A stretch of 43,906 nt of DNA. Origin: an uncultured Chloroflexota bacterium. Lineage in GTDB: Bacteria > Chloroflexota > Anaerolineae > Anaerolineales > Villigracilaceae. The stretch covers positions 1 to 43,906 of the forward strand of contig CAIWRB010000128.1 in the NCBI GenBank assembly GCA_903914955.1, in the 5' to 3' direction. Shown here in pieces: positions 7,843 to 22,113 of the stretch. The notes beneath the pieces are model-generated. The model was not told where the DNA came from. It worked only from the letters and a program-made list of their open reading frames with translations, and searched no databases. The position numbers and the translations under genes were made by a program. The first letter of the stretch is position 1. Each line of letters begins with the position of its first letter.

Positions 7843-7859
7843 TTAGTCAGATAGTTTAT

Positions 7860-7902
7860 TGGTCTGCTAGTTGGCTCGTTAGATCAGCCAACTAGCAGAC
7901 CA
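7860..7902. repeat. Perfect 17-bp intercistronic hairpin downstream of ygeW
   Basis: Arms 7860-7876 and 7886-7902 are perfect reverse complements with a 9-base loop. It lacks a T-tract, and the next gene starts 18 bases later. Together with the hairpin at 5564-5598 it brackets ygeY-ygeW, which suggests segmental mRNA control rather than termination. Confidence 0.8.
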
Positions 7903-7919
7903 GAAGACTAGGAGAATCT

Positions 7920-8873
7920 ATGACCAATAAACTCGCTGTAATCGCCATCGGCGGCAACTCACTCATCATTGATGAAAAAAATGTAAGTGTTGAAAGCCAG
8001 TATAAAGCCGCAAAAGAGACAGCTCTCCACATCGCCGACATGATCGAGCAAGGCTGGGAAGTGGCCATCGGTCACGGCAACGGCCCGCAGGTTGGTTTCA
8101 TCCTCAGACGCTCTGAAATCGCCGCGCGAGTCGAAGGTATGCACGAAGTCCCGTTGGATGTGTGCGGCGCTGACAGTCAGGGTGCGATCGGGTACGCACT
8201 CCAGCAGAATTTGCAAAATATTCTTTATCAACGCGGTATCAAGAAAAAAGTAGTAACGATCGTCACACAGACTCTCGTGGATAAAGCCGACCCGGCCTTT
8301 GCGAAACCAGCCAAACCCATTGGCGGATTCATGACCAAGGAGGAAGCTGAGCGCCGTCAGCGTGAGCAAGGCTGGAGCGTGGTCGAAGATGCAGGTCGCG
8401 GCTGGAGGCGGGTGGTCGCTTCGCCTCTGCCGAAAGAGATCGTCGAACTCGAAACAGTGGAAACTCTGCTCGAGAAAGGCATCATCACCATCACTGTCGG
8501 AGGCGGCGGAATTCCAGTCATTGACCCCGGCGATGGCAATTACGAAGGCATCGCCGCTGTCGTGGATAAGGATTACGCCTCGTCACTATTGGCTCAAAAA
8601 ATTAAAGCGGACCTTTTCGTTATCTCCACTGCTATTGAAAAAGTTGCCATAAACTTTGGCAAGCCCGATCAAAAATGGCTGGACAGAATCACGCTCGCCG
8701 AAGCCAAGGCTTATCTTGCCGAAGGCATCCACTTTGCCAAAGGCTCCATGGCTCCCAAGATTCAAGCTGTGATCTGGTATCTGGAGAATGGCGGCAAGGA
8801 AGCGCTCATTACCAACCCTGAAAATATTGGCCGCGCACTAAAAGGTGAAACAGGTACCTGGATCGTTGCGTAA
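7920..8873 (+). CDS. arcC: Carbamate kinase
   Basis: A 317-aa amino-acid-kinase-fold enzyme making ATP, ammonia and CO2 from carbamoyl phosphate and ADP. Family motifs are VIAIGGNSL near residues 7-15, IGHGNGPQVG near 51-60, DVCGADSQGAIGY near 82-94, ITVGGGGIPV near 193-202, VVDKDYASSLLA near 216-227 and FAKGSMAPKIQA near 275-286. The length is typical. It follows the ygeW-type gene and completes substrate-level phosphorylation from purine nitrogen. The ribosome site ACTAGGAGAATCT overlaps the end of the hairpin region. Confidence 0.94.
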   Translation: MTNKLAVIAIGGNSLIIDEKNVSVESQYKAAKETALHIADMIEQGWEVAIGHGNGPQVGFILRRSEIAARVEGMHEVPLDVCGADSQGAIGYALQQNLQNILYQRGIKKKVVTIVTQTLVDKADPAFAKPAKPIGGFMTKEEAERRQREQGWSVVEDAGRGWRRVVASPLPKEIVELETVETLLEKGIITITVGGGGIPVIDPGDGNYEGIAAVVDKDYASSLLAQKIKADLFVISTAIEKVAINFGKPDQKWLDRITLAEAKAYLAEGIHFAKGSMAPKIQAVIWYLENGGKEALITNPENIGRALKGETGTWIVA

Positions 8874-8878
8874 CGCTG

Positions 8879-10897
8879 ATGAAAAAATGGATCGGACGTT
8901 TGAGTGAAATAAAATTTACAACACGCAGCAGCGTGTGGTTCATGCTTTTAATTGCCGCGCTGACCTATGGCTTGTTCTTTTGGAAGCGCGGTTTTTATTG
9001 GGATGAATTTCCCTGGGCCTGGATCTATTATCGACTCGGCCCGGATATGCTAACAAAAACGTTCTCAACCAGCCGCCCGTTTTGGGGGATGATCTACCAG
9101 CTAACCATGCCAGTCATTGGACCGAATCCATGGATCTGGCAATTGCTGGCTATGATTTTACGCTGGGTCACAGCGCTCTTGTTCTGGTCGATCCTGCGCC
9201 TGTTATGGCCAGAACATCCACGACCCGCGTTGTGGGCAAGTTTACTTTTTCTTGTTTATCCGGGCATGGGTCAGCACTTTATCTCCATGATGTACAGCCA
9301 TTTTTACATCGTGTTGTCGTTTTATTTGTTGTCACTTTATCTATCCCTGCTGGCATTACAGTCTGAAAAATACCGCGTAATTTTATTCATTGCTTCCTAT
9401 TTATTTGCCGCGATCAATTTGTTGACAATGGAATATTTTTATTTTCTTGAGTTTGCGCGGATCATTTTGTTTTGGCAAATGTTCGGTAGAATGAAAAAAG
9501 TCCGTTTGCAAAAAACGATTCTATACTTCATACCTTATTTGATGATCTTTCTCGGCGTGACCTTTTGGCGCATGTTCTTCTTCACTTTCCAAAACGCCAG
9601 CTACAAATATGTATTGTTGGATGCCCTTCGGAATGATTTTCCCAGCGGTTTGTTGCTTCTGGTCAATAATATCGCCATTAGCTTTTGGCGGACAATATTT
9701 GAAGTGTGGATTTATTCTTTTGGCACCATCGGTTTGACTGGCTTTGGCCCGCTCACAATAACCTTGATGCTGGTTCTATTATTCTCAGTCATTTTGCTGG
9801 TCGGATTATTTCTTTTCAAGTTCGCATCTCCCGCCGATTCAAATGATCGTGACTTCGCAAAAAAAGCCGGCTTGATCGGTCTCGTCTTTTGGGGACTCTC
9901 AGGCGGGTCAGTTTGGATCATTGGGATTGTGCCTCAACTTAATTTTTCAATTGACCGTTTCATGCTGCCCTTTATGATGGGGTCGAGTCTGATCTTGGCT
10001 TGCTTGATCGCGTTAATCAAAAGTCAACGCACGCAAATGATACTGCTCGCATTATTGATCGGCTTCGCTGTTAGCAGACAATTTCGTTTGGAAGAGGTTT
10101 TTCGCAGTGACTGGAAAACCCAACAGGATTTATTCTGGCAAATGTCCACGCGCATTCCCGCGTTGGAAAAAGGAACCATCTTAATTTCAAATGATCTGCC
10201 CGTCACTTATTTTTCCGATAACTCATTGACCGGCCCGCTAAACTGGATATACAGCCCGCCGGGCGAAATGAATGTGATCCTTTACTTTGCCTCTGTCCGC
10301 ATAGGGAAAACTTTGACAAGCCTCGAGCCTGGGCAGCCGCACGAACATTATTATGTAGGCCCCACGTTTTATGGAAATACATCCAATATCGTTTTATTTA
10401 ATTATGACCCTCCCGGCTGTCTGCATGTGATCGATCCTGAAATTGATGAAGGCAACCGCTTGCTGCCGGAATTATTAAGAGATAATGCGCAATATTCCAA
10501 TCAAAATGTGATTTTGTTTGATCGAAAAGCAGTCCTGCCGAAACAATTTTATAATGAGGAACCGCAGCATCGCTGGTGTTTTTATTTTACACAAGCAGAA
10601 TTGGCCCGCCAGGAAGGGGATTGGGATCAGGTGGTGAAACTTGGTAACAAAGCTTTTACTTTAGCTGATCATCCAAACGACCCTGAAGAATATTTCGTTT
10701 TCATTGAAGGATATGCCAACACAGGAGATTGGGAAAAAGCGGTAGAATTATCTCAAGTTTCCTATAAGATATCGAAGAATTTCGTTAGGCCAGCCCTTTG
10801 TAAACTATGGGCTCGTATTGAGCGTGATACAAAAAGTGCACTTGAGCAGAAAGTCACTTTAGATAAAGCACGAAATATTTTTGAGTGTTTACCTTAA
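8879..10897 (+). CDS. Large polytopic membrane protein, possible GT-C-fold glycosyltransferase
   Basis: A 672-aa protein with about 10-12 hydrophobic segments in its first ~420 residues, then a soluble ~250-residue tail with helical, TPR-like stretches (QAELARQEGDWDQVV, EGYANTGDWEKAVELSQ). A WDEFPW segment (residues 40-45) right after the first membrane helix resembles the acidic first-loop motif of GT-C membrane glycosyltransferases; this is suggestive only. It begins 5 bases after the carbamate kinase stop, with no clear ribosome site, so translation may be coupled. It has no evident link to purine metabolism and seems more AT-rich than its neighbours. Function unknown. Confidence 0.7.
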   Translation: MKKWIGRLSEIKFTTRSSVWFMLLIAALTYGLFFWKRGFYWDEFPWAWIYYRLGPDMLTKTFSTSRPFWGMIYQLTMPVIGPNPWIWQLLAMILRWVTALLFWSILRLLWPEHPRPALWASLLFLVYPGMGQHFISMMYSHFYIVLSFYLLSLYLSLLALQSEKYRVILFIASYLFAAINLLTMEYFYFLEFARIILFWQMFGRMKKVRLQKTILYFIPYLMIFLGVTFWRMFFFTFQNASYKYVLLDALRNDFPSGLLLLVNNIAISFWRTIFEVWIYSFGTIGLTGFGPLTITLMLVLLFSVILLVGLFLFKFASPADSNDRDFAKKAGLIGLVFWGLSGGSVWIIGIVPQLNFSIDRFMLPFMMGSSLILACLIALIKSQRTQMILLALLIGFAVSRQFRLEEVFRSDWKTQQDLFWQMSTRIPALEKGTILISNDLPVTYFSDNSLTGPLNWIYSPPGEMNVILYFASVRIGKTLTSLEPGQPHEHYYVGPTFYGNTSNIVLFNYDPPGCLHVIDPEIDEGNRLLPELLRDNAQYSNQNVILFDRKAVLPKQFYNEEPQHRWCFYFTQAELARQEGDWDQVVKLGNKAFTLADHPNDPEEYFVFIEGYANTGDWEKAVELSQVSYKISKNFVRPALCKLWARIERDTKSALEQKVTLDKARNIFECLP

Positions 10898-16238: not shown

Positions 16239-17111
16239 ATGAACCTATGGCAAGAATATAAACGGCCTGCTTCCATATCAGAAGCCATTCAAGACCTCAC
16301 TTCTGCGTCTGGTCCTGTCATGCCCATTGCGGGCGGAACAGATCTCCTGCTTGATTTGAAGCAAGGCCGTCACGCCCCCATCCACACATTAATTGATTTA
16401 ACTTTTGTTCCGGAGATGTCTGTCCTCGAATTAAGAGGGGATGAACTCTATATCGGAGCCGCCGTTCCAGTCAACCGCGTTGCACTTGACCCGCTAACCG
16501 GTCTGCACGCCCAGGCATTGGTCGAAGCCTGTAACTTGATCGCGGGTCCGCAAGTTCGCAACACCGCCACGCTTGGTGGTAATGTTGCGCACGCTCTCCC
16601 CGCCGCAGACGGAACCATCGCCCTGACCGCACTCGAAGCGCAAGCCGAAGTCGCCAGTCCCACAGGGACACATCGTATGCCGTTTACGTCTCTTTTTCTT
16701 GGCCCTGGAGAATCAGCAATTAATAAAAACTCGGAGATCATTGTCGGCTTTTATCTCAAAAAAACTAAAAAGGGACAATCTTCGTGTTTCAAGCGCATCA
16801 TGCGGCCGCAAGGCGTAGCGCTTCCTATTTTAAATTGTGCTGTTTGGCTTGAACGTGATGGAGATGTCGTCAAAGATATTCACATCGCTGTTGGACCCGG
16901 CGGGCCAATTCCTTTCCGCGCTACCGAAGCAGAAGATGTCCTGCGTGGACAATCCTTCAACGAAGAGATTTTTACCCGCACACTCGAATCACTTCTCGTA
17001 CAAGCCAAATTCCGCACCAGTGCCCGCCGCGCCAGCGCAGACTACCGCAAGCATATCGTTGGTGGATTATTTAGTGATGTATTTGAAGCTGCGTGGAAGC
17101 GCGCAGGATAA
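16239..17111 (+). CDS. xdhB: Xanthine dehydrogenase-type FAD-binding subunit
   Basis: A 290-aa FAD subunit of a molybdenum hydroxylase (CO_deh_flav N-terminal and C-terminal domains). FAD-binding segments are MPIAGGTDLLLDLKQG near residues 29-44, LYIGAAVPVNRV near 70-81 and GPQVRNTATLGGNVAHALPAADG near 104-126. The C-terminal domain has FKRIMRPQGVALPILNCAVW. The Met at 16239 after AAAAGGACACCACCT fits homologous starts starting NLWQEY; the frame is open further upstream. The next gene encodes the FeS and molybdenum part, so the enzyme would have the usual FeS-Mo plus FAD composition. Confidence 0.9.
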   Translation: MNLWQEYKRPASISEAIQDLTSASGPVMPIAGGTDLLLDLKQGRHAPIHTLIDLTFVPEMSVLELRGDELYIGAAVPVNRVALDPLTGLHAQALVEACNLIAGPQVRNTATLGGNVAHALPAADGTIALTALEAQAEVASPTGTHRMPFTSLFLGPGESAINKNSEIIVGFYLKKTKKGQSSCFKRIMRPQGVALPILNCAVWLERDGDVVKDIHIAVGPGGPIPFRATEAEDVLRGQSFNEEIFTRTLESLLVQAKFRTSARRASADYRKHIVGGLFSDVFEAAWKRAG

Positions 17112-17122
17112 GGATTAATGGT

Positions 17123-19918
17123 ATGTCAAAAATAAACCTTTCAGTTAATGGGAAAGATTATTCACTCGGATCTGTCGCGGGCGAAACTTTATCGACCCTA
17201 CTTCGCGATCGGCTTCGTCTCACTGGCACAAAGATCGGTTGTGAAGAAGCCGAGTGCGGCGCGTGCACCGTCCTTGTGGATGGAGAGCCGATGATGTCCT
17301 GTGTCTATCCTGCCGAGCGCGCCGATGGTAAGAACATCGTCACTATCGAAGGACTCGCACAGCGCGTTCATAACGAAATGAAACTTCACCCGTTGCAGGA
17401 AGCTTTTGTTGAACAGGGCGCTGTGCAGTGCGGATTCTGCATCCCCGGCCAAATCATGACTGCGTATGCTTTGCTCAAACGTAATCCAGATCCAAACAGC
17501 GATGATATTCGATTTGCTTTGAAAGATACTCTTTGCCGTTGCGCGGGTTATCCTTCGATTGAAAATGCCATCATCGCCGCGGCCGAAGCCTTACGGACAG
17601 GAGAACCCGTTCAAAAGCCGACGCACATTCCTGATTCAATTCATAATCACAAGACAGTCGGTCATAGTCACTTGCGCCCAGAGGCTGTGGAAAAAGTAAC
17701 CGGCGAAGCCATCTATACCGATGATCTGACATTCGACGGCATGTTGTTTGCCAAAGCCCGCCGCGCCATGATTCCACATGGATTTTTAACCAAGCTCGAT
17801 GTCTCCAAAGCAAAGGCACTCCCCGGTGTGGTTGCGGTTCTAACTGCTGAAGATATTCCAGGCGAACATAATCATGGACTGGTCATCTACGATTGGCCGG
17901 CGATAGTCGGCATCGGTGAACGGGTGCGTTATGTCGGGGATTCAATTGCCATCGTTGCCGCCGAGACTCAGGATATCGCCGAACAGGCGTCCGCGCTGAT
18001 CGAAGCGGAGTTTGACCTCCAGCCCGTCATCACGGATCCAGTTCAGGCGCGTCAGGACGGCGTCCCTCAAATCCACGAAAAAGGAAATTTGCTTAAGCAC
18101 ATCAAAGTTCGCAAGGGTGATATGGATGCGGGTTTTGCGAAAGCCGATCTTGTTTTTGAACACACCTTCCACACGCCGGCCACTGACCACGCTTTCATCG
18201 AGCCCGAGTGCAGCATCGGCGTGCCGCTGGCCGATGGTCGCATGGAAATTTATGTTGGCTCGCAAATTCCGTATCAGGATAAAACACAGGTTGCGCGTGC
18301 GTTGGGTTGGGATGAGTCTCGCATCCGCGTTGTGGGTCAACTGATGGGCGGCGGTTTCGGCGGCAAGGAAGACATTATGGGACAGATCCACGTTGCCCTG
18401 CTTGCGAACGGGACTCAGCGCCCCGTGAAGTTGTTGTTTGATCGCCACGAAAGTTTGCTTGTGCATCCCAAGCGCCACGCCACGCAGATTCGTGTCAAGA
18501 TGGGCGCGATGAAGAATGGCCGACTCGTTGCGGTGGATACCGAACTCTACGGTGACACGGGCGCATATGCGTCGCTCGGCGAGAAGGTGATGACCCGCGC
18601 CACAACGCACGCCGCTGGGCCGTATGACGTGGAAAATGTCCGCGCCGATTGTTACGCCATGTACACCAACAATCCGCCCGCGGGCGCGTTCCGCGGTTTC
18701 GGCGTCACGCAATCTGCATTTGCAGTTGAATCAATGATGGACATGCTCGCTGAAAAATTGGGTATTGACCGCATTGATCTGCGCCGCATGAACGCGCTGC
18801 ACGTTGGAAGTATCACCAACACAGGACAGGAATTAAAAGAGTCCGTGGGCTTGATGGAATGTATTGACCGCGTGAATACGGAGATGCGCAAACACAACTC
18901 GGATCCATTCACGCCGATCACTGATCCTGCCAATCCGAACTTGGTACGCGCCTGGGGCTTTGCCTCTGCCTATAAGAATACAGGGCTCGGCGGCGGCGCT
19001 CCCGACATCTCTGGCGCGGATGTTGAACTATACGAAGACGGCACATTCCAAGTCCGTAGTTCAGCTGCTGAACTAGGTCAGGGACTCGTGACTGTCATGC
19101 GTTTGATCGTCTCCGAAGAAATGGCTGTCGCTCCAGAAAAAGTTCGCGTGCTTGTGATGGACACTGACTTGACTCCCAACGGTGGTCCGACAACTGCATC
19201 ACGCCAAACATTTGTGACAGGCAACGCATCTCGCTATGCCGCAAAGACTCTGCGTGATGAGATCACCGCCACGATGGCGGAGAAATATGATGTGAAGCCC
19301 GAGCAAATTAAATTCAGGGACGGCAGTGTCCACGTCAATGGGACTTCGCTAACTTATGCAGAAATTTATAAAGAAATGAAAGCTCTTGGAAAACAGCCCT
19401 GCGTCCGCTACGAATACGAAGCGCCCAAGACCAAACCGCTCGGCGAAGGCGGCGACATGCACTTTGCCTTTTCATTCGGTGTGCAGGCTGCCGAAGTGGA
19501 AGTCAACAAGTTGACAGGCGAAGTGCGCGTTCTGAAAGTCATCTCAGCCAACGATGTGGGCATGGCGGTCAATCCGCTTGGCTTGCAGGGACAGATCGAA
19601 GGCGGCGTGATGATGGGACTCGGCAACGCTCTCACCGAAGAATTCATCGTCGAGAACGGCAACGTGATCACAGATCATCTTGCCCGTTATCGCGTCCCTG
19701 GTATTATGCTCACTCCAGAGATCACTTCCATCGTTGTCGAGCACCCTGTGGAAGCAGGTCCCTACGGCGCGAAGGGCGTGGGCGAAGTGTGCAGTATCCC
19801 AACCACACCCGCCATCACAAACGCTATCTACAATGCGGTCGGCGTGCGTATTGATAGGACGCCTGTGGATCAGGAGTTGATCGCCAATGCGATATGGGAG
19901 CGGGAAAGTGGGAAGTGA
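17123..19918 (+). CDS. xdh: Xanthine dehydrogenase-type molybdenum hydroxylase, fused FeS and Mo subunit
   Basis: A 931-aa fusion. Residues 1-155 carry two [2Fe-2S] clusters: Cys40, 45, 48 and 60, then Cys103, 106, 138 and 140. From about residue 175 it is a molybdopterin-binding hydroxylase chain: RPEAVEKVTGEAIYTDD, GQLMGGGFGGKED, GAFRGFGVTQSAFAVE, SAAELGQGLVTVM, GGPTTASRQTFVTG and a C-terminal GAKGVGEVCSIP with the likely catalytic Glu. The two-part fusion with a separate FAD protein matches the selenium-dependent xanthine dehydrogenase group, and ygeY/ygeW genes nearby support that. No selD, yqeB or yqeC gene is in the window, so selenium dependence is unproven. It would oxidise hypoxanthine to xanthine and urate. 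Confidence 0.9.
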   Translation: MSKINLSVNGKDYSLGSVAGETLSTLLRDRLRLTGTKIGCEEAECGACTVLVDGEPMMSCVYPAERADGKNIVTIEGLAQRVHNEMKLHPLQEAFVEQGAVQCGFCIPGQIMTAYALLKRNPDPNSDDIRFALKDTLCRCAGYPSIENAIIAAAEALRTGEPVQKPTHIPDSIHNHKTVGHSHLRPEAVEKVTGEAIYTDDLTFDGMLFAKARRAMIPHGFLTKLDVSKAKALPGVVAVLTAEDIPGEHNHGLVIYDWPAIVGIGERVRYVGDSIAIVAAETQDIAEQASALIEAEFDLQPVITDPVQARQDGVPQIHEKGNLLKHIKVRKGDMDAGFAKADLVFEHTFHTPATDHAFIEPECSIGVPLADGRMEIYVGSQIPYQDKTQVARALGWDESRIRVVGQLMGGGFGGKEDIMGQIHVALLANGTQRPVKLLFDRHESLLVHPKRHATQIRVKMGAMKNGRLVAVDTELYGDTGAYASLGEKVMTRATTHAAGPYDVENVRADCYAMYTNNPPAGAFRGFGVTQSAFAVESMMDMLAEKLGIDRIDLRRMNALHVGSITNTGQELKESVGLMECIDRVNTEMRKHNSDPFTPITDPANPNLVRAWGFASAYKNTGLGGGAPDISGADVELYEDGTFQVRSSAAELGQGLVTVMRLIVSEEMAVAPEKVRVLVMDTDLTPNGGPTTASRQTFVTGNASRYAAKTLRDEITATMAEKYDVKPEQIKFRDGSVHVNGTSLTYAEIYKEMKALGKQPCVRYEYEAPKTKPLGEGGDMHFAFSFGVQAAEVEVNKLTGEVRVLKVISANDVGMAVNPLGLQGQIEGGVMMGLGNALTEEFIVENGNVITDHLARYRVPGIMLTPEITSIVVEHPVEAGPYGAKGVGEVCSIPTTPAITNAIYNAVGVRIDRTPVDQELIANAIWERESGK

Positions 19919-19931
19919 TCAGTAATCAGTG

Positions 19932-19970
19932 AAAAAGGACTCTCAGGTTTTTTGCCTGAGAGTCCTTTTT
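19932..19970. terminator. Bidirectional terminator between xdh and the DUF2442 gene
   Basis: Perfect 16-bp arms, 19932-19947 and 19955-19970, with a 7-base T-rich loop. The outer arms are A-rich and T-rich, so it works in both directions, ending xdh on the plus strand and the DUF2442 gene on the minus strand. A close relative lies at 20759-20796. Confidence 0.92.
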
Positions 19971-19976
19971 GATTTG

Positions 19977-20318
19977 CTACTTCATTGCAACACGTGCTTT
20001 TGAAAGTTTCTTTTTCTGAACTGCCGCCACAGCGATATTTTTCTTTTTGCCCCGGGTAGTTTTGCTCTGAGATGGAAATTTCTTTACAGCCTTACTTTCA
20101 AGATAAAGCGTATCATAACTCAGGTCAATTTCCCCTTGCCATTCCACTGAGCCGGATACTACACGTGCTGTTTTGAAAAGAGCGGTATTTTTCCATCGCG
20201 CAAATACGGGTTTGTTGAAATACGGTGTCAAGTCAAAGATGCGTTTTTCGCCATTTTCAAATGTCAATAGCAGGCGGTAGTCTTCCTTAAATTGAATGGA
20301 TTTTACATAAGGATTCAT
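19977..20318 (-). CDS. DUF2442-family protein
   Basis: A 113-aa protein whose N-terminal ~75 residues match DUF2442 (YVKSIQFKEDYRLLLTFENGEKRIFDLTPYF, then WQGEIDLSYDTLYLES). A Lys-rich, basic C-terminal tail of about 38 residues, beyond the usual domain, could contact nucleic acid or be disordered. It lies 8 bases downstream of the DUF4160 gene; the two families are commonly neighbours, and the compact arrangement resembles a toxin-antitoxin or similar accessory pair. No activity is established from sequence. The start has the ribosome site TAGGAGCGCAA. Confidence 0.82.
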   Translation of the reverse strand: MNPYVKSIQFKEDYRLLLTFENGEKRIFDLTPYFNKPVFARWKNTALFKTARVVSGSVEWQGEIDLSYDTLYLESKAVKKFPSQSKTTRGKKKNIAVAAVQKKKLSKARVAMK

Positions 20319-20326
20319 TTGCGCTC

Positions 20327-20557
20327 CTATTTCAATGGGTCAATCTTGAAGACTTCTTCCCCTTTAACTGCCAGCTTCCAATCGGCGTTCAATTCTTCGC
20401 GGCGAATTTCAATCCATGCCAACACAAGACGAGTCTTGCTGTTTGGAAATTTACCAGCAAGTAATTTGCCATCTGCAATGCTAAAGACAGCCTTGTCCCC
20501 TCCATACTCTACATGAATATGGGGAACATGATGCTGTTTATTGTCTGTATAATACAT
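20327..20557 (-). CDS. DUF4160-family protein, probably 5'-disrupted
   Basis: A 76-aa remnant of a DUF4160 protein, with HHVPHIHVEYGGDKAVFSIADGKLL and a C-terminal helix region RLVLAWIEIRREELNADW. Thirteen in-frame codons upstream, at 20596, is an ATG with an excellent ribosome site (TAGGAGAAAATAAC). That frame reads M-P-I-L-S-M-F and then hits TAA at 20573-20575, where relatives usually have an aromatic residue. Translation would have to restart at 20557 without a good ribosome site. So the gene is likely a recent nonsense mutant, a shortened but functional form, or carries a sequencing error. It is paired with DUF2442 downstream. Confidence 0.7.
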   Translation of the reverse strand: MYYTDNKQHHVPHIHVEYGGDKAVFSIADGKLLAGKFPNSKTRLVLAWIEIRREELNADWKLAVKGEEVFKIDPLK

Positions 20558-20615
20558 GCGGACAATGACGCATTAAAACATGGATAGGATTGGCATGTTA
20601 TTTTCTCCTAACCGA

Positions 20616-20643
20616 ATTATATCCCGACTTTTAACGGGATATA
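20616..20643 (-). promoter_or_regulatory. Inverted repeat and -10-like element upstream of the DUF4160 gene
   Basis: TATATCCCG (20618-20626) and CGGGATATA (20635-20643) form a perfect 9-bp inverted repeat with an 8-base centre. On the minus strand a TATAAT (20616-20621) overlaps one arm, 20 bases from the upstream ATG. No good -35 is seen. It may be an operator-promoter for the DUF4160/DUF2442 pair, and it also lies at the junction with the xdh remnant. Confidence 0.4.
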
Positions 20644-20651
20644 TAATTTCC

Positions 20652-20744
20652 ATCTGTGATGCTGTCGGCGTGCGAATTGACAGGACGCCTGTGGATCAGG
20701 AGTTGATCGCGAATGAATTGTGGGAGAGGGAAAACAAGAAGTGA
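20652..20744 (+). pseudogene. 3'-terminal remnant of a second xanthine dehydrogenase-type gene
   Basis: From 20652 the frame reads I-C-D-A-V-G-V-R-I-D-R-T-P-V-D-Q-E-L and continues to I-A-N-E-L-W-E-R-E-N-K-K before TGA at 20742-20744. This matches the last ~30 codons of the intact xdh gene (I-Y-N-A-V-G-V-R-I-D-R-T ... A-N-A-I-W-E-R-E-S-G-K). Several differences are synonymous, as expected for a diverged functional paralogue rather than a fresh copy. Everything upstream is missing and replaced by the DUF4160/DUF2442 module. A related terminator follows, as in the intact copy. Confidence 0.85.
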
Positions 20745-20758
20745 AAAGTAATCAGTGA

Positions 20759-20796
20759 AAAAGGACTCTCAAGTTTTCAAGCTTGAGAGTCCTTTT
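20759..20796. terminator. Terminator after the xdh remnant
   Basis: Perfect 15-bp arms, 20759-20773 and 20782-20796, with an 8-base loop and T-rich 3' arm. It shares AGTAATCAGTGAAAAAGGA and the following CTCTCA with the terminator after intact xdh, so the two descend from one ancestor. Confidence 0.9.
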
Positions 20797-20844
20797 CATG
20801 TCTGCTTGCATATCGGGTAAAATCAGGCGAGGAAAAGGATAATT

Positions 20845-22113
20845 ATGAACAAATTCACCGGCTATCGCTGTTCACTTTGTGGCGCTGAATACCTGCCCGG
20901 TCAGGTCACGTACACCTGTCCGAAGGATGGCGGCAATCTGGATATCATTCCTGATTACGAAGCCATCAAGAAGAAATTCCATCCCGAAGATATTACCTCG
21001 CGGACTGAGTCTTCGCTTTGGAGGTATCTTCCGCTCTTGCCTGTGGACGAACCTGAAGGAGATTCTACTCCACTGCACGCTGCAGGCTGGACGCCCGTAT
21101 TTGCTCTACCGCGACTGGCAGAAAAACTCAACCTCAAGCATCTCTGGTTGAAAGACGAGTCTCGCAATCCAACAGCTTCATTCAAAGATCGCGCCAGCGC
21201 AGTCGTTGTGACTCGCGCGCGCGAACTCAAAGCTGAAGTGGTGGTGACTGCATCCACAGGTAATGCGGGCGCGGCCTTGGCAGGCATGTCCGCTGCAGTG
21301 GGACAGAAGGCAATCATCTTTGCGCCTAAATCCGCTCCGCAGGCCAAGGTGGCGCAGCTGCTCATCTTCGGCGCAAAAGTGATTCTAGTGGATGGAACCT
21401 ACGATGAAGCATTCGATCTAAGCGTCAAAGCCTCGAATGAATTTGGCTGGTATTGCCGCAACACTGGATACAATCCATTTACATTGGAAGGAAAGAAGAC
21501 CGCCGCTTTTGAAATTTGGGAATGGTGGCTGGAAGCTCATCGAGAGTGGCATCAAAAAGACAAACAGCTTGATGATCACGCGCCTCTCACTATTTTTGTT
21601 TCAGTTGGTGATGGCAATATTATTTCAGGTATTCACAAAGGCTTCAAGGATCTGTTTGCATTAGGCTGGATTCAAAATATGCCGCGCATCATCGGCGTGC
21701 AGGCGGAAGGTTCCGCAGCGATTGCAAATGCGTTTAACGCAAACACTGAAATCATCACACCCGTCTCTGCTACGACGATCGCGGATAGCATTTCCGTAGA
21801 TCTGCCACGAGATGGAGTCCGCGCGGTGCGGGCTGTGAAGGAAACTGGTGGAAAATACATCACCGTGACCGATGAGGAGATCATTAAGTCTATTGCGGAA
21901 CTTGGCAGAATGGGAGTCTTTCCCGAACCGGCTGGAGCGACGGCTTATGCGGGTCTGGTCAAAGCGGCAGGTTCGGGCGTCGTCCGAATTGATGATCCAG
22001 TCCTCGTTATGAATACAGGCAGCGGTCTCAAAGATATCCGAGCGGCGATGAAGGCCGTTATCGAAGCGCCGATCATTGAACCAACTTTGTCAGCGGTGAA
22101 AAAATTATTATGA
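20845..22113 (+). CDS. thrC: Threonine synthase
   Basis: A 422-aa PLP-dependent fold-type II enzyme that converts O-phosphohomoserine to threonine. An N-terminal zinc-ribbon-like segment (YRCSLCGAEY with Cys8 and Cys11, then TCPKDG) is typical of one threonine synthase group. The PLP lysine is in NPTASFKDRASAVV near residues 110-124. STGNAGAALAGMSA near 137-150 binds the PLP phosphate, and a C-terminal MNTGSGLKD follows. I considered diaminopropionate ammonia-lyase (YgeX), because purine clusters often contain it, but the zinc ribbon and motif order favour threonine synthase. The start follows GAGGAAAAGG. It overlaps the next gene by 4 bases. Confidence 0.9.
   Translation: MNKFTGYRCSLCGAEYLPGQVTYTCPKDGGNLDIIPDYEAIKKKFHPEDITSRTESSLWRYLPLLPVDEPEGDSTPLHAAGWTPVFALPRLAEKLNLKHLWLKDESRNPTASFKDRASAVVVTRARELKAEVVVTASTGNAGAALAGMSAAVGQKAIIFAPKSAPQAKVAQLLIFGAKVILVDGTYDEAFDLSVKASNEFGWYCRNTGYNPFTLEGKKTAAFEIWEWWLEAHREWHQKDKQLDDHAPLTIFVSVGDGNIISGIHKGFKDLFALGWIQNMPRIIGVQAEGSAAIANAFNANTEIITPVSATTIADSISVDLPRDGVRAVRAVKETGGKYITVTDEEIIKSIAELGRMGVFPEPAGATAYAGLVKAAGSGVVRIDDPVLVMNTGSGLKDIRAAMKAVIEAPIIEPTLSAVKKLL

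Follow-up and report, generated by a model that had tools for sequence, protein, structure and literature searches.

In the genome of an uncultured member of the Chloroflexota (Anaerolineales, Villigracilaceae; assembly GCA_903914955.1), two small genes with the domains DUF4160 and DUF2442 are enclosed by a doubled 3' end of a xanthine-dehydrogenase-like molybdenum hydroxylase gene (xdh). Judged by the same interval in relatives, this pair has been inserted between the body of xdh and its old end, and the gene now terminates in another copy. The stretch analysed, called the window here, comprises positions 1 to 43,906 of contig CAIWRB010000128.1 and is 43,906 nucleotides long. A sequence-only reading of the window had noticed that the end of xdh and its terminator recur downstream of the intact gene with the DUF pair exactly between the two occurrences, and both observations hold. 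The direct repeat (19833-19969 and 20659-20796) spans 138 columns at 85.5% identity with an E value of 3.9e-41 against the window's own downstream sequence, and a blind repeat search of the window matches 19826-19951 with 20652-20777 at 85%. It comprises roughly the last 28 codons of xdh, the stop codon and the terminator. The copied coding part amounts to 28-31 codons, of which 11 are changed, five synonymously and six non-synonymously; both of the long identical blocks quoted in the sequence-only reading are present in both copies; its description of the intervening changes as synonymous holds for fewer than half of the changed codons. The features of the locus, in window coordinates, are the following.

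17093-19918, plus strand: intact xdh (Pfam Fer2, Fer2_2, Ald_Xan_dh_C, MoCoBD_1 and MoCoBD_2), with an in-frame ATG at 17123
19826-19918, plus strand: copy UP, the 3' end that xdh now uses (repeat search and alignment of the copies)
19919-19970, plus strand: terminator after copy UP (hairpin 19937-19965)
19977-20318, minus strand: DUF2442 protein, a DhiA-like antitoxin of 113 aa (Pfam E 3e-13)
20327-20596, minus strand: DUF4160 protein, a DhiT-like toxin (Pfam E 4e-21), with a listed open frame at 20327-20557 (76 aa)
20615-20648, no strand assigned: AT-rich inverted repeat 5' of the toxin gene, the probable promoter/operator of the module, its left part common to the modules of genomes G002 and G006
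20652-20744, plus strand: copy DOWN, the stranded xdh 3' end including the stop codon (repeat search and alignment of the copies)
20745-20797, plus strand: the usual terminator of xdh (hairpin 20763-20792), ahead of the PALP leader
20845-22113, plus strand: PALP gene (profile match; read by eye as threonine-synthase-like), which directly follows xdh in genomes with an empty site

The displaced gene end is recognised from relatives in which the site is empty. Two overlapping sets were compared, namely 22 stretches from congeners and 80 loci from named genomes, 79 of which contain the xdh C-terminus (G and L numbers are our labels for genomes and loci). The gap between xdh and PALP measures 89-114 bp in nine of the 22 congener stretches (G015, G009, G027, G020, G006, G017, G025, G026 and G016) and 813-4313 bp, with other genes inside, in eight; PALP was not found within the stretch in the remaining five. 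Among the 79 named loci the gap is at most 158 bp in 16 and 786-3631 bp in 14, and PALP is not in reach in 49, many of which belong to more distant relatives. The DUF pair is absent from all 22 congener stretches and all 80 named loci. What follows copy DOWN, that is the terminator, the TATCGGGTAAAAT leader and the start of PALP, is the same as what follows xdh in, for example, G015, G009, G027 and G006, and therefore the pair came between the gene body and its old end. By this comparison the 93-base segment earlier termed a remnant is the stranded end of the same xdh gene, holding the place of the ordinary 3' end together with its terminator and leader, and the proposal that the module arrived by recombination or insertion is supported.

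Within the window's own genome (G000), the segment has no further place at E <= 0.001, the only matches being the two copies and the self-complementary match of the terminator. Terminator-like sequence is present elsewhere in relatives; a dispersed terminator as the source of the homology is rejected, since a search for the hairpin pattern in G000 returns two sites only, both in this repeat. Between the copies, frames of at least 60 codons are those of the DUF pair and one overlapping 74-codon frame on the plus strand (20292-20516), and a transposon or insertion sequence is rejected because no transposase gene lies there.

As to how the second copy arose, the route we prefer, at about an even chance, is a homology-anchored insertion in which the module came together with a diverged xdh end from another lineage. 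Incoming DNA carrying the module beside such an end would recombine with the host xdh through that end, presumably by RecA-type recombination, and the far side would join without homology just inside the host gene end. Insertion of the module (about 0.7 kb) at the 3' end of xdh would leave two gene ends: the intact gene closes with one copy, the module comes next, and behind it stand the original end, its terminator and the next gene's leader. In an alternative form, a circle carrying one gene end would integrate by a single crossover. Such an insertion would be of low cost because the host gene stays intact, and later recombination between the copies could remove the module again, leaving an empty site as before. 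Copies UP and DOWN are 86.4% identical, DOWN and G015 91.0%, and UP and G015 89.2% (local alignments, 130-133 columns); UP and L114 are 88.7% identical. A second calculation gives 86.1, 90.4, 86.6 and 87.4 for the same four comparisons. The copies are thus about as diverged as species, with the stranded copy DOWN looking the more native. A comparison of six cases of doubled ends is divided: the identity between the two copies was exceeded by that to at least one sister in four (xdh in G000, the tmk site of G032 and the metG sites of G002 and G035) but not in the other two, tmk in G025 and metG in G000. Module edges, compared by eye, vary between sites, as a non-homologous joint would predict.

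The xdh gene itself (17093-19918) is apparently mosaic. Its identity to G002 and G015, which starts from about 90% and lies at 82-93% in codon-alignment columns 300-1800 and 2400-2700, drops to 74-81% in columns 1800-2400, and G009 and G027 are 83-84% identical to it in columns 1800-2100. Because xdh looks mosaic in this alignment, recombination between lineages at this gene is plausible.

Several results weigh against a homology-anchored arrival. A sister grouping of UP and DOWN is compatible with the tree data (approximately unbiased test, p-AU 0.295), each of the two is the other's nearest row by path (0.16) although they form no clade in the best tree, and the top identity of UP in the tree alignment is to DOWN. 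G025 and G032 have a BrnT/tmk insertion site in common, and there the copies within G025 group as sisters (support 96/92.7), the outcome expected of duplication in place or of gene conversion afterwards; joining the upstream copies across the two genomes is rejected (p 0.026), as is joining the downstream copies (p 0.012), and therefore either conversion took place between the copies or each pair originated within its own genome. Neither the 22 stretches nor the 80 loci yielded a donor with the DUF module beside xdh, and the donor may be unsampled. The count of mosaic sites in the repeat is weak. By our own count UP is native-like at 5 of 6 sites to the left of a 29-base block that the copies share, and to its right DOWN is so at 10 of 16, but script totals that include sites outside the repeat give UP 8 and DOWN 2 on the left and UP 15 and DOWN 11 on the right. 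Relatives for this count were the five of the 80 with the highest xdh identity, the result depends on the sites counted, and with such differing totals a crossover is not proven.

The phylogenetic results at both sites would suit a strict insertion with long target duplication, a serious though somewhat less probable explanation in which the module inserts, the host's own gene end is copied at insertion and the initially identical copies diverge later. It also draws support from G035, where 44 bases of the xdh end recur without a mismatch 660 bp beyond the gene and flank another module. However, local alignments show the window copies to be as similar to sister species free of the insertion as they are to each other, or more so, and the end branch of the displaced copy is not the longer one (UP 0.062, DOWN 0.054). 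Moreover, the best pairs at toxin loci are 76-96% identical and none is exact, although short-read assembly may hide exact ones. For the window we therefore lean to the homology-anchored route, with in-place duplication close behind. A broader idea, which we consider rather unlikely, is that toxin-antitoxin modules of Anaerolineales travel as 'gene-end cassettes', in which a module joined to a single copy of a host gene end is excised between the copies as a circle and re-enters the same gene in another cell by homologous recombination; as part of that same reading, such cassettes would parallel those of integrons but need no recombinase, and the target gene would stay whole.

The remaining explanations fare much worse. 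An assembly artefact, one contig joining two strains, might be suspected because the window comes from a 470-contig assembly with an estimated contamination of 4.51%, and misassembly had been named beforehand as an outcome that would overturn the reading. It is very unlikely, since the same anatomy is found in other assemblies, including that of G025, which is a single contig, and a 14% difference between the copies is presumably not readily confused by an assembler. Similarly improbable is the earlier proposal that the DUF pair took the place of the body of a paralogous or tandem xdh gene, of which the second end would be the relic. The 3' end does occur twice, but no additional xdh match downstream of xdh is found in the 22 congener stretches or in 79 named loci (four of which have fewer than 1000 bases there), the window alone having one, the remnant. 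The expectation that some sister genomes would keep two full xdh genes or lack the pair is thus borne out in its second part only. In addition, among the matches listed for the window's own genome (at least nine in G000), the others are 34-40% identical, and doubled ends are found for unrelated genes too. An integron gene cassette with attC sites is close to negligible, for although an integron-like array exists in the genus (G025, 382-388 kb), the window repeat is a gene end with a terminator, and neither the two window copies nor 31 other pairs satisfy a simple attC rule. The rule is insensitive, however, having also missed L254, L261 and L269, which are attC-like by eye.

That array (G025:C1 382000-388500, L211) consists, by eye, of small genes, a HigB/HigA-like pair among them, separated by repeats that measure about 70-170 bp and have cores of the GCCCAACGG / GTTGGGC type.

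The inserted genes resemble a known system. DUF4160 and DUF2442 are the domain pair of the DhiTA toxin-antitoxin system of Dickeya dadantii, according to a table in PMC8198452, and a pair of this type is linked to plasmid persistence in Thermus in PMC12724237. The window has the same two domains in adjacent genes, as in DhiTA. However, the window proteins match the NCBIfam DhiT and DhiA models with only 74 of the 100 and 26.6 of the 200 bits set as equivalog cut-offs, and the pair is for this reason called DhiTA-like. Moreover, the full-length toxin frame is interrupted by a stop at codon 8 (window 20572-20596), through which the relatives in G035, G002 and G006 read, and the open frame from 20557 (76 aa) aligns with the DhiT model only from position 14. 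The toxin gene may be decaying or may start later, and its toxin function is putative. PADLOC gives no match for the module. It measures about 0.7 kb and apparently has a promoter and terminator of its own. Related modules elsewhere in G035, G002 and G006 share 79-81% DNA identity with it; their edges, by eye, are unlike those in the window, and no fixed ends are seen. The G035 module (G035:C140) is again flanked by a diverged repeat (89 columns, 84%), here at the start of a gene that was read by eye as diacylglycerol-kinase-type.

Judged by what relatives carry there, the interval between xdh and PALP is a hotspot for insertions. Its toxin-antitoxin-like occupants include BrnT (L123), a MazE-type antitoxin with a ParE-like toxin (L138), DUF433/DUF5615 (L125), PIN proteins (L142 and L147, and L184 with MazE) and, at L145, DUF2281 beside a PIN-like frame identified by eye, followed by DUF4926/DUF6883. 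Other occupants are, among others, a GGDEF protein (L132), DUF2971 (L129) and a pyridoxamine-oxidase-like protein (L126). A direct repeat pair between xdh and PALP is present at five of seven toxin-antitoxin-like loci vs none of seven other occupied named loci (P 0.021), where the 14 are the occupied named loci with PALP in reach, the toxin-antitoxin-like class (L123, L125, L138, L142, L145, L147 and L184) was assigned by us, and some of the pairs are mere terminators of 30-40 bases.

Two further intervals are of note in their own right. In G001:C5 (L098) two different toxin-antitoxin-like units are separated by three copies of the terminator and the sequence that follows it. At L146 the interval holds genes for a methylase of EcoRI type and for a GmrSD/HNH protein (7846-10283); here a restriction-type unit uses the hotspot that toxin-antitoxin modules use elsewhere.

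Doubled gene ends recur at other toxin loci in related bacteria. Toxin families were recognised by profile only, and 30 of 43 DUF4160, 30 of 103 BrnT and 30 of 35 ParE matches were sampled, together with a control of 30 out of 145 HSP20 matches, all from one set of 61 genomes; these are mostly metagenome assemblies, in which exact repeats may be under-represented. A direct repeat pair (E <= 1e-4, at least 75% identity) spans the gene at 8/30 DUF4160, 16/30 BrnT and 6/30 ParE loci vs 2/30 HSP20 loci. Under a stricter rule, by which one copy must contain the end of a long frame directed away from the insert, the counts are 5/30, 11/30 and 3/30 vs 0/30. Taken together, this rule assigns doubled gene ends to 19 of 90 toxin loci, a count that includes the window locus (L041) and in which L212 and L213 share one insertion point, vs none of 30 HSP20 loci (P 0.0033). 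Of 600 random foci, drawn from the first 1.2 Mb of a single genome, the single-contig G025, six satisfy the rule (P 2.4e-13), two of them inside the integron-like array. At least three of the 19 (L058, L062 and L254) look like other repeats and another three (L215, L227 and L234) are doubtful, which lowers the count to 16/90 or, without all six, to 13/90. By eye, the repeat pairs of the wider count are mixed as well: L058, L254, L261 and L269 are integron-like, L055 and L062 are other repeats, and several pairs are terminators or dispersed repeats. Most of the toxin loci examined have no doubled gene ends.

Clear cases, with gene names read from translations, involve gene ends of IleRS-like (L214), aldo-keto-reductase-like (L228) and proC-like type (L050, around a DUF4160 gene) and, in G000 itself, of metG-like type (L232); the gene preceding tmk is a clear case in both G025 (L213) and G032 (L212). 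Among orthologues in the genus, leaving out the other-genus loci L330, L331, L359-L361 and L431 and, for the L224 gene, also the partial or distant L449-L457, the doubled end is found at 2/28 for the gene before tmk, 3/27 for the metG-like gene, 4/29 for the proC-like gene and 1/17 for the L224 gene. The distance from the first of these to tmk is 60-111 bp at 14 of the 28 loci and 568-1413 bp at six, and eight gave no tmk. The mode is not exclusive to toxin-antitoxin genes, since a blind scan of 1.2 Mb of G025, in which many repeat pairs look like paralogous genes, also holds a few gene-end cases with sulfatase-like and lipoprotein-like cargo (by eye); this mixed cargo, also seen between xdh and PALP, counts against the explanation preferred here.

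The four doubled proC-like ends (L402, L408, L413 and L420) make this gene another hotspot, and a further fragment is present in G021. At L249 (G030:C94, 347-1824) at least three aldehyde-dehydrogenase-like 3' ends (by eye) are interspersed with small genes of toxin-antitoxin-like kind, which looks like repeated insertion in tandem at a single gene end.

Insertion with long target duplication is reportedly known for restriction-modification genes in Helicobacter pylori, from work by Nobusato et al. in 2000 and Furuta et al. in 2010. As described in four papers (PMC3874152, PMC1643837, PMC3031569 and PMC3154945), that type of insertion places restriction-modification genes, a small addiction-type unit, between direct repeats of about 100 bp, the repeat being single in a relative with an empty site. 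The same is found here, where an insert lies between direct repeats of that order and the relatives have a single repeat and no insert. In contrast to what those texts describe, the cargo is DUF4160/DUF2442, a toxin-antitoxin pair in Anaerolineales and not restriction-modification genes, and the repeats are often gene ends, diverged by 4-24%. Homology-facilitated illegitimate recombination has been proposed for effector-immunity arrays of the type VI secretion system of Vibrio cholerae and for orphan Rhs 3' ends (PMC5361080). The displacement described there has a homology anchor on one side, a non-homologous joint on the other and the old 3' part left downstream (PMC5361080), as the preferred route would have here. 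However, what it leaves is an old immunity gene or 3' region (PMC5361080), whereas here it is the end of an enzyme gene, about 90 bases long, and the gene itself is intact.

In the open-access literature searched, mostly by listings, no report of toxin-antitoxin modules with long target duplications was recognised. The window case resembles insertion with long target duplication in its mode but is distinct from the restriction-modification case described. To our knowledge, the movement of solitary chromosomal toxin-antitoxin modules is an open question. Such gene pairs in related bacteria are often flanked by doubled gene ends, which hints at movement without a transposase. For annotation, short 3' gene fragments beside toxin-antitoxin genes can mark an insertion rather than a lost paralogue. 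A genus in which modules lie repeatedly between doubled ends, with numerous empty-site relatives and one single-contig member, makes the question of their mobility testable.

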